Shown in pieces: positions 11,882 through 48,239 of a stretch of 64,000 nt of DNA. How positions within the stretch are numbered: the stretch's first letter is position 1; every line of letters starts with the position of its first letter. The notes under the pieces were generated by a model that was given only the letters and a program-made list of their open reading frames with translations, searched no databases and had not been told where the DNA came from. The stretch is from positions 682,001 through 746,000 of the forward strand of contig NZ_REFH01000007.1 in assembly GCF_003688495.1 (NCBI RefSeq). The letters run 5' to 3'. The stretch is from Flavobacterium weaverense. Its GTDB lineage: Bacteria > Bacteroidota > Bacteroidia > Flavobacteriales > Flavobacteriaceae. A program made the translations under genes and the position numbers.

Positions 11882-12664
11882 ATGAATTCAAGACAAAACC
11901 AGTTACAAGCTTTCGGAAGATTATTAGATATAATGGATGATTTGCGCGAAAAATGCCCTTGGGATATGAAGCAAACCATGCAAAGCTTACGTCATTTAAC
12001 TATTGAGGAAACCTATGAATTAGGTGATGCTATTCTAGATAATGATATGTCTGAGATCAAGAAAGAATTAGGTGATGTTTTATTGCACATTGTTTTTTAT
12101 TCGAAAATTGGAAGTGAAACTAATGATTTTGATATCGCTGATGTCTGTAATGAATTATGTGAAAAGCTAATACATCGTCATCCGCATATCTACAGTGATG
12201 TTGTTGTAAAAGATGAAGAAGAAGTAAAGCAAAACTGGGAAAAACTCAAACTAAAAGAAGGCAAAAAATCTGTTTTAGAAGGAGTGCCAAAAAGTTTGCC
12301 TGCATTAGTAAAAGCGAGCCGAATTCAAGATAAAGTAAAAGGTGTGGGATTTGATTGGGAGGAATCGCATCAAGTGTGGGATAAAGTGCAAGAAGAATTA
12401 GCCGAATTACAAGTTGAGGTCGAAGCTGGTGATCAAGATAAAATTGAAGACGAATTTGGGGATGTTTTATTTTCGATGATAAATTACGCTAGATTTCTAA
12501 AAGTAAATCCAGAAGATGCATTAGAACGTACCAATAAAAAATTCATAAAGCGTTTTCAGTATTTAGAAAGTAAAGCTGGAGAGCTAGGAAAACCACTGAT
12601 GGATATGACCTTAGCTGAAATGGATGTTTTTTGGGAAGAAGCGAAGCGGCTTCCTAAAAAATAG
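11882..12664 (+). CDS. mazG: Nucleoside triphosphate pyrophosphohydrolase MazG
   Basis: MazG hydrolyses NTPs and dNTPs to monophosphates, limiting nucleotide-pool damage and (p)ppGpp effects. The 260-residue protein has both tandem MazG domains. The first carries CPWDMKQTMQSLRHLTIEE with EETYELGDAI. The second carries EELAELQVEVEAGD and then DEFGDVLFS, the EExxE and ExxD metal-binding residues. The last eight residues (EAKRLPKK) come from a 69-bp unit duplicated at the 3' end. The older end (EAKKL then TAA) is still readable downstream at 12776-12793, so the C-terminus has been replaced without harm to the catalytic domain. Confidence 0.95.
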   Translation: MNSRQNQLQAFGRLLDIMDDLREKCPWDMKQTMQSLRHLTIEETYELGDAILDNDMSEIKKELGDVLLHIVFYSKIGSETNDFDIADVCNELCEKLIHRHPHIYSDVVVKDEEEVKQNWEKLKLKEGKKSVLEGVPKSLPALVKASRIQDKVKGVGFDWEESHQVWDKVQEELAELQVEVEAGDQDKIEDEFGDVLFSMINYARFLKVNPEDALERTNKKFIKRFQYLESKAGELGKPLMDMTLAEMDVFWEEAKRLPKK

Positions 12665-12785
12665 GATTTGAAAATCTTTGATTTTCAAATATTTCAATTT
12701 TGGGAAGAAGCGAAGCGGCTTCCTAAAAAATAGGATTTGAAAATCTTTGATTTTCAAATATTCCAATTTTGGGAAGAAGCGAAAA
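12633..12785 (+). repeat. 69-bp tandem repeat, two full copies plus a partial third, at the mazG 3' end
   Basis: The unit starting GGGAAGAAGCGAAGCGGCTT begins at 12633 and 12702 with exactly 69-bp spacing, and a partial third copy begins at 12771. The two full copies differ by one base (TTTCAA versus TTCCAA). Each contains a perfect 11-bp inverted repeat ATTTGAAAATC-TTT-GATTTTCAAAT (12666-12690 and 12735-12759) and a shorter GAAGC/GCTTC pair. The third copy diverges after GAAGCGAA into AAAGCTATAA, which reads as the original mazG stop. Confidence 0.95.
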
Positions 12786-44897: not shown

Positions 44898-46244
44898 ATG
44901 AATAAGAAACACCATTCCAACAATATACTTTTGAATTTAGGCATTGAAAGTCTGAACGAAATGCAAGAAGTTGCTCAAGACGCAATACTAAATGATAATA
45001 ATGTTCTTTTACTTTCGCCAACAGGTTCTGGTAAGACTTTAGCTTTTTTATTGCCAGTTTTAGAAATGTTGCAACCGGAAATACAGTCCGTGCAATGTTT
45101 AATTTTAGTTCCATCACGCGAATTAGGATTACAGATTGAGCAAGTTTGGAAAAAAATGGGTACTGATTACAAAGTAAATGTGTGCTACGGCGGACACTCT
45201 ATTGAAACAGAAATTAAAAATTTAAGCAATCCACCAGCAGTTCTATTGGGAACTCCAGGAAGAATTGCTGATCATATTGACAGAGGAACTTTTCGTCTGG
45301 ATAAAATCCAAACTTTAATTCTGGATGAGTTTGATAAATCATTACAATTAGGTTTCCATGAGCAAATGTCATTTATCATAGGTAAATTAACAAAACTGAA
45401 CAAACGTGTTTTGGTTTCTGCGACTTCAGACATTGAGATTCCAAGATATACACGAGTTGTTAACCCAACGATTCTTGATTTTATTCCAGAAAACGAACAG
45501 GAATCAAACCTTTCCACAAAAATGGTCGTTTCTAAAGAAAAGGATAAAATAGGCAGTTTGTTCAACTTAATTTGTTCTTTAAAATCAGAATCGGCTATTG
45601 TATTTTGTAACCATCGTGATGCTGCAGAACGCATAAGCGATACTTTAAACGAAAAAGGAATTTATGCTACGTGCTACCATGGTGGCATGGATCAGGATGA
45701 AAGAGAACGTGCTTTAATTCAATTTCGCAACGGAAGTGTAAGTTATTTAATCACAACTGATTTAGCAGCTCGTGGACTTGACATTCCTGAAATGAATCAT
45801 GTTATCCATTATCATTTACCGGCCAAGGAAGATGAGTTTACTCATAGAAATGGTAGAACAGCTCGTATGTTATCCTCAGGGACAGCGTATATAGTGGCGC
45901 ATGAAAGTGAGAAAAAAGCAGATTATTTAGATTATGGAATGCCCGTTTTCAATGTAGAAAACAATGTTTCTTTACCAAAACCGCCTCAATTTCATACGAT
46001 TTATATCAGCGGTGGAAAGAAAAACAAATTAAATAAAATTGACATCGTAGGTTTCTTTTCTCAAAAAGGTAATCTTGAAAAAGGTGATTTAGGTTTAATC
46101 GAAGTAAAAGATTTCATTTCTTTTGCAGCAGTAAAATTCAATAAAGTAAAAGACTTATTGCACGCAATTAAAGATGAAAAAATGAAAGGCAAGAAATTTA
46201 AGATTGAAGTAGCGAGAAAAGTTATTAAAAAGGAAGAGGAGTAG
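44898..46244 (+). CDS. DEAD-box-type RNA helicase with DEFD motif and DbpA-like tail
   Basis: This 448-residue protein has both RecA domains of an ATP-dependent RNA helicase. Motifs are Walker A SPTGSGKT (40-47), PSRELGLQ, TPGRIADHI, motif II LDEFDKSL, motif III SAT and motif VI HRNGRTAR. Motif II reads D-E-F-D in place of D-E-A-D. The last 80 residues resemble the DbpA RNA-binding domain (KNKLNKIDIVGFFSQKG, GLIEVKDFISFAAVKF), which targets 23S rRNA helix 92 in DbpA, so a ribosome-assembly role is likely. A TACCTTTG -7 element lies at 44876-44883. A TGTTCAG repeat begins directly after the stop. Confidence 0.92.
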   Translation: MNKKHHSNNILLNLGIESLNEMQEVAQDAILNDNNVLLLSPTGSGKTLAFLLPVLEMLQPEIQSVQCLILVPSRELGLQIEQVWKKMGTDYKVNVCYGGHSIETEIKNLSNPPAVLLGTPGRIADHIDRGTFRLDKIQTLILDEFDKSLQLGFHEQMSFIIGKLTKLNKRVLVSATSDIEIPRYTRVVNPTILDFIPENEQESNLSTKMVVSKEKDKIGSLFNLICSLKSESAIVFCNHRDAAERISDTLNEKGIYATCYHGGMDQDERERALIQFRNGSVSYLITTDLAARGLDIPEMNHVIHYHLPAKEDEFTHRNGRTARMLSSGTAYIVAHESEKKADYLDYGMPVFNVENNVSLPKPPQFHTIYISGGKKNKLNKIDIVGFFSQKGNLEKGDLGLIEVKDFISFAAVKFNKVKDLLHAIKDEKMKGKKFKIEVARKVIKKEEE

Positions 46245-46249
46245 AAAAG

Positions 46250-46270
46250 TGTTCAGTGTTCAGTGTTCAG
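46250..46270 (+). repeat. Three tandem TGTTCAG heptamers after the helicase gene
   Basis: TGTTCAG occurs three times in a row (46250-46256, 46257-46263, 46264-46270), starting 5 bases after the helicase stop. Looser relatives follow at 46292-46308 (AAGTGCTCAGTATTCAC). They match the elements at 12792-12861 and 47446-47472. Confidence 0.75.
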
Positions 46271-46588
46271 GAGGGGAATTTGAAAAGTCATAAGTGCTCA
46301 GTATTCACTTTCTATGATTATTTGTTTCATTTGTCATAATTGAAGCACCCTTGTGAAGTTGCTCAGTATTTTTGATAAGGGCTCCACGGTTACAATTGGA
46401 GTAGAATTTATTGTTAAAAAGGGAATGATAATCTTCATTTTAATTTGTCATGCTGGAAGCATCCCTACAAAGTTGCTCAATAGTGTTGAGACGCTTCCAG
46501 CGTGACAATTGGAGTTGTATATATTTATAAGTAAAAGAACGCAGAAGTTTTAGAGATTAAAATTTATACTTACATATTTTCACACTAA

Positions 46589-46632
46589 AAAGCCGTTAGC
46601 AAGAGATAATTATTTTGCTAGCGGTTTTTTTT
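46589..46632 (+). terminator. Terminator-like hairpin inserted after array unit 2
   Basis: CCGTTAGCAA (46593-46602) pairs with TTGCTAGCGG (46615-46624) with one G-T pair, followed by eight T. A near copy lies at 47017-47055. Confidence 0.7.
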
Positions 46633-47012
46633 AACTTTAATTTTGTCATGCTGGAAGCATCTCGGTAAAGTTGCTCAATTGTTTTAGGACTCTTTTAACG
46701 TGACAATTGGATTTGCATTTATTTTTAGAATTAAATGATAATTTTCGTTTTTACTTTGTCATGCGGTAAGCATCCCGAAAAAGTTGCTCAATAGTGTTGA
46801 GGCGCTTCCAGCGTGACAACTGCAGTTGGATTTATTGTTAAAAAGTGAATGTTAAGTTTTATTTTTATTTTGTCGTGCTGGAAGCATCTTTACAAAGTTG
46901 TTCAATAGTGTTGAGGCGCTTCCAGCATGACAATTGGAGTTTATTTATTGATAAATAAAAGAACGCAGAAGTTTTAGAGATTAAAATCTCTACTTATATA
47001 TCTTCACATTAA

Positions 47013-47055
47013 AATGCCGTTAGCAAGAGATAATTCTTTTGCTAGCGGTTTTTTT
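47013..47055 (+). terminator. Terminator-like hairpin inserted after array unit 5
   Basis: CCGTTAGCAA (47017-47026) pairs with TTGCTAGCGG (47039-47048), followed by seven T. It repeats the hairpin at 46593-46632 together with its upstream flank (AAAAGAACGCAGAAGTTTTA), so the two belong to one duplicated segment. Confidence 0.7.
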
Positions 47056-47390
47056 AACTTCAATTTTGTCATGCTAGAAGCATCCCGACAAAGTTGCTCA
47101 ATAGTGTTCAAACACTTCCACCGCAACAATTAAAGTCGCATTTATTGTTAAAAATAGAATGATAATTTTATTTTTAATTTGTCATGCTGGAAGCATCCCG
47201 ATAAAGTTGCTCAATTGTGTTGAGACGCTTCCAGCGTGACAACTGGAGTTGTATGTATTGTTAAAAAGAGAATGATAATTTTTGTTTTACTTTGTCATGC
47301 TGGAAGCATCCCGACGAAGTTGCTCAATAGTGTTGAGAAGCTTACAGCTTCACAATTGGGTTTACTATTTTTGTTGGAAATGAAAAATAA

Positions 47391-47432
47391 AAAAAGCGTT
47401 AGCAGCCTAAATTTAGACTGCTAACGCTTTTT
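47391..47432. terminator. Strong bidirectional terminator at the end of the array
   Basis: AAAAAGCGTTAGCAG (47391-47405) and CTGCTAACGCTTTTT (47418-47432) form a perfect 15-bp stem around a 12-base loop. It shares the GTTAGCA core with the two array hairpins. It lies before the convergent phnA-like gene. Confidence 0.9.
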
Positions 47433-47445
47433 TTAATATTTACTC

Positions 47446-47472
47446 AGAACTGAATACTTAAAAATGATCACT
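47446..47472 (-). repeat. Dispersed TTCAGT-type extragenic element, inverse copy
   Basis: Read on the minus strand it contains AAGTATTCAGTTCT (47459-47446), identical to 12848-12861. AGTGATCA lies next to it (47472-47465), as also found beside the 12.8-kb copy. With the heptamers at 46250 it flanks the hairpin array on the other side in inverse orientation. Confidence 0.6.
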
Positions 47473-47499
47473 CAAAAACTTATCACTGAAGACTAAATT

Positions 47500-48078
47500 T
47501 TAAGTTTTCTTCACGTATTGCGTAATAATCACAATCGTTTGTCCATCAACTTTTCCTTCAATATATTCTGCATTTTCATGATCTAAACGGATATTGCGAA
47601 CTGCAGTTCCTTGCTTAGCAACCATACTTGATCCTTTTACTTTTAAGTCTTTGACCAAAACCACTGAGTCTCCAGTTTCTAGGATAACTCCGTTGCTATC
47701 GCGATGTATTATTTTATTTTCGTCGTCTTCTCCTTCTCCTGTTGCTTGTGCCCAAGCCAAGTTATCTTCATCTAAATACATCTGATCTAGCAATTCTTGA
47801 GGCCATCCTGCAGCACGTAAACGACTTAACATTCTCCAAGCTACAACTTGCACTGGAACTTGTTCGCTCCACATGCTGTCATTTAAACATCTCCAATGGT
47901 TTAAATCTACATTGTCAGGGTTTTCAATTTGATCAACACAAGTACTGCAAGCCAAAATGCTTTCGTCTAGTCCACCTTTTTTTGTTGGAAGTACTTCGTA
48001 AACTTTTAAGTTTTCGTTTGCGCCACAAAGTTCACATTTCGATCCACTACGTTTGCTTAATTCTCTTTCTATGCTCAT
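47500..48078 (-). CDS. PhnA-type zinc-ribbon protein
   Basis: This 192-residue protein matches the PhnA/YjdM family. It has an N-terminal zinc ribbon with C15-x2-C18 and C44-x2-C47, a helical middle (VPVQVVAWRMLSRLRAAGWP), and the C-terminal PhnA domain with VILETGDSVVLVKDLKVKGSS and GTAVRNIRL. Despite the name, most members are not shown to act on phosphonates, and the role is unknown. It is cytoplasmic and stands alone, converging on the hairpin array. Confidence 0.88.
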   Translation of the reverse strand: MSIERELSKRSGSKCELCGANENLKVYEVLPTKKGGLDESILACSTCVDQIENPDNVDLNHWRCLNDSMWSEQVPVQVVAWRMLSRLRAAGWPQELLDQMYLDEDNLAWAQATGEGEDDENKIIHRDSNGVILETGDSVVLVKDLKVKGSSMVAKQGTAVRNIRLDHENAEYIEGKVDGQTIVIITQYVKKT

Positions 48079-48218: not shown

Positions 48219-48239
48219 GAGACGCGTCCAGCGTGACAA
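48219..48239 (+). repeat. Solo 3' half of the 60-bp hairpin unit
   Basis: GAGACGCGTCCAGCGTGACAA matches the 3' end of the array units with one change (GCGTCC for GCTTCC). The 5' arm is missing. It lies between the phnA-like and coaD genes, about 0.9 kb from the array. Confidence 0.7.

Follow-up and report, generated by a model that had tools for sequence, protein, structure and literature searches.

Between a helicase gene and a convergent phnA-type gene of Flavobacterium weaverense lies a regular series of palindromic units that holds no gene. What are these units, and how did so many of them come to stand in a row? We approached both questions computationally, using the 64,000-nucleotide stretch that carries the array (the window; G000:C1:682001-746000), the rest of the genome and the genomes of relatives.

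The array and the structure of its units

The array comprises eight units (Table 1) spaced by 114, 198, 113, 114, 196, 113 and 113 bp. The initial annotation, made from the letters of the window, had described eight units with a period of about 113-114 bp that lengthens after units 2 and 5, related linkers and a position between convergent genes; the unit starts and spacings, the homology of the 49-50-nt linkers and the opposed strands of the DbpA-like helicase gene and the YjdM/PhnA family gene confirm this description. The unit itself is longer than the 60 bp given there, extending by two bases at each end to 64 bp (TTGTC...GACAA). Pairwise identity among units 2-8 is 77-95%, unit 1 is a decayed relative of the others, and the 3' arms of units 3, 6 and 8 are damaged. 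Allowing up to three mismatches, a pattern describing the hairpin matches the genome 59 times at 15 places, the array included, as compared to no match in the reversed control. As the three units that we folded also outfold their shuffled versions (z of -5.9, -4.9 and -5.8 for units 2, 5 and 7, respectively), a chance origin is excluded.

Table 1. The array, its linkers and its surroundings (positions are those of the window)
Feature	Position	Strand	Basis or remark
Left neighbour, DbpA-like DEAD-box helicase	44898..46244	+	PF00270, PF00271, PF03880
Unit 1, decayed doublet	46331..46394	+	alignment A1; 68-78% identity to other units
Unit 2	46445..46508	+	alignment A1, hairpin pattern, R1 match (E 1.8e-19), fold
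Unit 2, 5' hairpin ATGCT-GGA-AGCAT	46450-46462		
Unit 2, 3' hairpin ACGCT-GGA-AGCGT	46491-46503		read on - strand
Long linker after unit 2, 134 nt	46509..46642	+	terminator-like hairpin 46587-46630
Unit 3, 3' arm decayed	46643..46706	+	alignment A1, R1 match
Unit 4	46756..46819	+	alignment A1, R1 match
Unit 5	46870..46933	+	alignment A1, R1 match, fold
Long linker after unit 5, 132 nt	46934..47065	+	terminator-like hairpin 47016-47049
Unit 6, 3' arm decayed	47066..47129	+	alignment A1, R1 match
Unit 7	47179..47242	+	alignment A1, R1 match, fold
Unit 8, 3' arm damaged	47292..47355	+	alignment A1, R1 match
Terminator-like hairpin of the convergent gene pair, right of array	47388..47435	.	similar in most of 20 array-less relatives
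Right neighbour, YjdM/PhnA family protein	47500..48078	-	PF03831
Single hairpin remnant, TGTC family, next intergenic space	48221..48239	-	G000:C1:730221-730239, 1 mismatch

Each arm of a unit forms a hairpin of its own, with a TGTC foot, an AYGCT stem strand, a GGA loop, the AGCRT return strand and a tail that is mostly CYC (5 bp of stem, 3 nt of loop). The arms of unit 2 are not identical, being ATGCT/AGCAT on the left and ACGCT/AGCGT (in its own reading direction) on the right, and each of them pairs within itself. In alignment A2, which brings together 30 doublets of this genome (eight loci), the two-hairpin model leaves 91.3% of cells paired with 27 double-change cells, values inflated by relatedness, and none of 500 shuffles is as high, whereas a long stem joining the two arms pairs 80.9% of cells with three double-change cells, and all 500 shuffles are as high. 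Two of the five covariation measures used did not rise above the shuffles for the two-hairpin model, namely the number of pairs with a double change (four; 330/500) and of further pair types (12; 212/500); the inflation by relatedness applies to the remaining measures of this model.

Other genomes supplied 42 loci with 164 matches, yielding 150 aligned rows and 79 distinct doublets, or 54 after removal of within-locus repeats. These 54 keep 9.59 of 10 own-hairpin pairs and 8.28 of 10 arm-to-arm pairs, in an alignment that was fitted to the two-hairpin model and in which two rows were kept despite gaps in one arm. The two arms carry unlike stems in 39 of the 54 doublets. ATTCC/GGAAT is the commonest stem among the 108 arms (40), followed by ACGCT/AGCGT (15), ATGCT/AGCAT (10), ACTCC/GGAGT (7), ACTCT/AGAGT (6), ATCCT/AGGAT (3) and ACCCT/AGGGT (3). 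At the phnA locus of F. micromati, where a regular expression finds 32 units, the 5' stems are perfect in 26 despite variation of the 5' loop (TTA in 13, GTA in 12, GAA in 7).

A long hairpin can form, since unit 5, the example singled out in the initial annotation, on its own pairs better arm to arm, and since the best fold of symmetric doublets is one long hairpin (-16 to -17 kcal/mol, compared to -2.7 and -3.9 for single arms); for heterodimer doublets two hairpins are predicted. The long hairpin is not the structure conserved across the family: compensatory changes track the arms, which rules out a long-stem palindrome as the conserved unit. Of the earlier proposal of a palindrome with pairing-preserving changes, the covariation thus stands, located inside each arm, and arm-to-arm pairing as the conserved feature falls.

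The strong folding of single units could also suggest a transcribed tandem small RNA, another of the options first put forward. This we consider highly improbable: covariation does not run along the long stem, sigma-70-like promoters show no excess (five found, 4.3 expected in shuffles), and no Rfam family reached its gathering score, upon which the RNA gene was dropped as a candidate. We are highly confident that the array consists of tandem TGTC-footed doublets, REP-like and head-to-head, and the original REP/BIME-like label is to this extent upheld. E. coli BIMEs are inverted REP pairs in intergenic arrays; the arraying of inverted hairpin pairs between genes is shared with the doublets, and the foot and hairpin are unlike those here.

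Several variants of the doublet were seen along the way. Heterodimer arrays at L015 (1707-2582) and L016 (1849-2192) combine an ATTCC-GGA-GGAAT arm with an arm of ACGCT or ATGCT type. The loops of doublets at L097, L102 and L293 are 9-11 nt long rather than 3, a possible link to longer CGTC hairpins. At L189 (reverse complement 162, 323, 645, 1544) the doublet spacer lengthens in steps of 12-13 nt (TCTCGATAAAGTT).

Distribution of the doublets and their genomic setting

About 13 further sites in the genome carry the repeat; the match at C1:785k (three mismatches) falls within an open frame and could be due to chance. Two or more tandem units are present at eight of the 13 own-genome loci examined, with differing periods; one of the eight, C2:45.7k, holds half units only. 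The doublet model R1 matches 55 of 199 genomes of the genus and 8 of 20 named Flavobacterium genomes. Within the order it matches 41 of 296 genomes (eight from the genus itself, 33 from a single other family), and within the class 8 of 247, including this genome and G028, the other six matches being weak; match numbers per genome are listed candidates in which both strands match, not copy numbers. A unit that is dispersed in its genome and in many relatives, and that covaries inside its arms, is on these two points unlike the simple decaying local duplication, found only here, free of covariation and untranscribed, which the initial annotation had kept as its fallback.

Of 80 Flavobacterium loci, 70 have the helicase gene convergent with phnA. 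Only two of these 80 phnA loci, those of F. segetis and F. micromati, yield R1 matches at E up to 1e-4, and L150 has a single weaker match (E 0.059). Among the remaining 78 loci, 14 have TGTC hairpins with longer loops, and L153 (5565) alone has one in the same intergenic space. The size of the array at this site runs from three units in F. segetis (spacing 114 and 203) through eight in this genome to at least 28 in F. micromati. In the latter, the helicase is followed by nine units up to a contig end, while another contig carries at least 19 units from its end to phnA with linkers like those on the helicase side; the two contig ends appear to face each other. About four further units with similar linkers lie beyond the other side of phnA, so that F. 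micromati has doublet arrays on both sides of the gene (L189 3040-3753 and 4705-7488, linkers alike); on this second side, the window has one hairpin remnant only.

We read by eye the site in 20 relatives that lack the array and have shorter gaps. A terminator-like hairpin, mostly of the CGTTA type, is present, as are heptamer-like repeats in most. In the window, degenerate 7-mer repeats (GTGTTCA / ACTGAAC) flank the 3' ends of the genes at 46249-46320 and 47440-47500; they form a separate repeat class that occupies the same site in many relatives. Elsewhere in this genome an array at C2:278k (L010) adjoins folB, as does the L276 array of F. segetis, and the neighbouring proteins are 91% identical. 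This second array site therefore seems common to the two species; the linkers of L010 and L276 gave no match at the linker-likeness threshold.

Gene orientation was scored at 53 doublet loci searched with nhmmer, of which three gave no match, six were unclassifiable and 44 could be classified: the neighbours are convergent at 28, point in the same direction at 16 and are divergent at none (p about 5e-6 against an assumed one quarter), the frames having been called mechanically, with a few of the loci orthologous and one of them, L283, having two doublets 3.3 kb apart. E. coli REPs have published roles at 3' ends and as gyrase or nucleoid sites, and the lack of divergent loci, together with the share of convergent ones, would fit a selected 3'-end element that serves the convergent pair as mRNA stabiliser, terminator helper or gyrase or nucleoid site. 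Such a role is unlikely here: while the pair is convergent at most of the 80 loci, doublets of the array's type stand near phnA at just the two, the 20 relatives read have the terminator-like hairpin though no array, and copies decay. The doublet array probably has no role for the cell, its place behind convergent or same-direction genes being probably one that is tolerated because promoters are absent there.

Probable growth of the arrays in place

The two long linkers, exceptions among the 49-50-nt ones, are 92% identical to each other, and the long linker of F. segetis is 85% and 84% identical to those after units 2 and 5, respectively. A recent 424-bp double repeat finds partial support only and was rejected: units 3 and 6 are just 77% alike, diverging more than the long linkers that precede them, and hence the double repeat is no simple recent duplication.

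To compare linkers across arrays, we collected 173 of them from 23 loci, keeping lengths of 30-200 nt and dropping others. Within a locus 745 of 1029 linker pairs are alike, and between loci 220 of 13849. All 220 fall in five locus pairs. One is the orthologous pair of the window and F. segetis, and another is formed by the two contig ends of F. micromati; the other three link F. micromati C17, F. fryxellicola and F. xanthum, whose neighbour frames have equal lengths. We read all five as orthologous or split arrays.

In some arrays the linkers also resemble the surrounding DNA. At the C1:117k array of this genome, the linker equals the right flank (1-121) followed by the left flank (last 30 of 150 nt), and in an F. 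segetis array with AAAATCA at both edges it equals the right flank (1-19) followed by the left (last 69 of 81 nt). A linker composed of right plus left flank is the mark of tandem duplication together with both flanks. Two of the 17 arrays examined show it clearly. For 13 of the 17, the similarity to at least one flank exceeds that of 99 of 100 shuffles, in some of them trivially, through an undetected end unit, and four (L016, L269, L280 and L282) have no flank match. A TRF search for periods of 60-500 returned 14 rows, ten of which hold the repeat (two loci) and four of which do not (up to 3.8 copies), a weak control in that the 732 kb searched, the window plus 80 loci, are centred on the array's own locus. 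A 69-bp tandem repeat at window positions 12629-12783 (2.2 copies, 98% alike) has no hairpin. No single doublet yielded an insertion footprint, and C3:42.7k was discarded as an empty site of one, as the distance between the two genes there varies among relatives.

The suggestion that the element expands in situ, made from the window's letters, held up in the likeness of linkers within most arrays, in their unlikeness between non-orthologous ones and in the differing array sizes at one site. We have good confidence in growth in place as such, taken apart from its copying step and trigger, and it is likely that one doublet with its flanking DNA was tandemly duplicated again and again. The founding doublet would have landed beside the terminator of the convergent pair, and strand slippage or illegitimate recombination would then have copied it along with its flank, a step that hairpins stalling replication may have helped; unequal exchange between copies could subsequently have altered the number of units. 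More tentatively, TGTC mini-hairpin doublets may act as satellite seeds, the neighbouring DNA duplicating in tandem wherever one lands, without a transposase. If so, one bacterium gains many locus-specific satellites; in F. micromati we examined nine arrays, the largest of at least 28 units.

Candidate enzymes and the closest known systems

Could a dedicated enzyme instead move and amplify the doublets? The layout resembles that of REPINs, and the enzyme proposed for GTAG REPs, a tyrosine transposase called RAYT (TnpA-REP), is at hand: this genome encodes one (NF047646, 92.1 bits, cut-off 80), and at E up to 0.001 a RAYT is matched in 152 of the 199 genomes of the genus, in 77 of them above the cut-off. 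Two inverted REPs do form the unit, as in a REPIN, but the foot is TGTC rather than GTAG (GTRG), and a cognate RAYT flanked by the same REP is lacking, the RAYT here being flanked by a different repeat, GGGCACGGATTGCAAATCCGCGC (also denoted GGGCACGGATT), in four copies with up to three mismatches that all adjoin the gene. The gene, the only one of its kind that we found in this genome, lies among these four copies at L009 880-2120, and the repeat is found nowhere else in the genome at that number of mismatches. In 31 RAYT loci (30 matched in genus genomes plus the own locus; 104.7 kb) we detected no TGTC hairpin, as compared to 15 in 78 other loci (651.8 kb), with six other tags giving 0-6 matches in the same comparison; as 2.4 would be expected in the RAYT loci (P(0)=0.09), this is absence rather than proven avoidance. 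The best R1 match in these 31 loci has an E of 0.16, with none below 0.1. Finally, RAYT matches are present in 44 of 55 doublet-positive and 108 of 144 doublet-negative genomes (p=0.58), leaving 11 doublet-positive genomes without one. We therefore regard a RAYT-driven REPIN as improbable.

The recombinase of the neisserial phage Nf1 is of the IS110/Piv type. Nf1 integrates at dRS3 (ATTCCC-N8-GGGAAT), a hairpin alike in style that occurs in arrays with 30-160-bp RS repeats (PMC3898611, as far as its available text goes), and the doublet might likewise be a site for a phage or an IS110/Piv-type recombinase. The evidence makes this very unlikely. IS110 (PF01548) has no match in this genome and is found in 13 of 55 doublet-positive and 31 of 144 negative genomes (p=0.85), 30 IS110 loci (98.2 kb) hold no TGTC hairpin, and IMG/VR contigs gave no match to the exact pattern TTGTCAYGCTGGAAGCRTC, the sole stem scanned, for which viral carriage was set aside. 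Neither RAYT nor IS110 is associated with the doublets, and both were rejected as drivers; nor is there a transposase among the 25 most frequent of the 137 Pfam families that occur in 86 proteins from the flanks. Growth in place by tandem duplication is the reading that we retain.

The closest relatives are the CGTC-tagged REPs, for which, in the available text of Di Nocera et al. (2013, PMC3733652), TGTC is a variant foot, head-head dimers are described and no dedicated transposase is named. As in these REPs, the doublets have an unpaired TGTC foot (here at both unit ends) and an A-T first stem pair, are mostly head-head dimers, many of them unlike-armed, and lie between convergent or same-direction genes; Bacteroidetes are included among the CGTC carriers (PMC3733652). 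At the first and second stem positions, where CGTC families 1-4 have complementary A and T, the doublets have A-T and then T-A or C-G. The differences lie in stem length, loop and tail. The stems of 8-9 bp and loops of 4-5 nt in families 1-4, as compared to 5 bp and 3 nt, keep the doublets out of these families, and the tail is mostly CYC here and mostly CCA there (PMC3733652). Long tandem arrays are common here, whereas CGTC groups are described in that text as rare outside Neisseria and Wolbachia.

NIMEs, made of dRS3 (which is CGTC-1; PMC3733652) and RS, likewise form intergenic arrays, 200-2700 bp long, in which short hairpins stand together with repeats of 30-160 bp; RS are repeat families, whereas the linkers here are private to their locus save in orthologous or split arrays (PMC3898611, available text). 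In Pseudomonas fluorescens SBW25, REP doublets stand in tandem with flanking sequence as REPIN clusters, similarly to our arrays (Bertels and Rainey 2011, PMC3116915). According to the available part of that study, an ordered cluster has up to four REPINs, as compared to at least 28 units here, and three clusters adjoin RAYTs, whereas we saw no RAYT link for the TGTC type. Five family sequence strings had no match in the literature searched, and among the matches listed there (titles and starts of abstracts) we found no account of Flavobacterium arrays.

Our verdict is that the repeat belongs to a known kind, of which it is a variant with a short stem, and that it would seed local satellite arrays. 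A survey of reference species reports, in its available text, non-coding satellite families with long repeats in two species only, and its family table lists a 69-nt family in Flavobacterium psychrophilum (PMC6749651). CGTC-type REPs have, in the text available to us, no known dedicated transposase (PMC3733652), and the genus offers a workable case: same-site arrays differ in length between related species, private linkers record each local expansion, and some genomes with doublets match neither RAYT nor IS110. This makes it testable whether hairpins alone can seed bacterial satellites.
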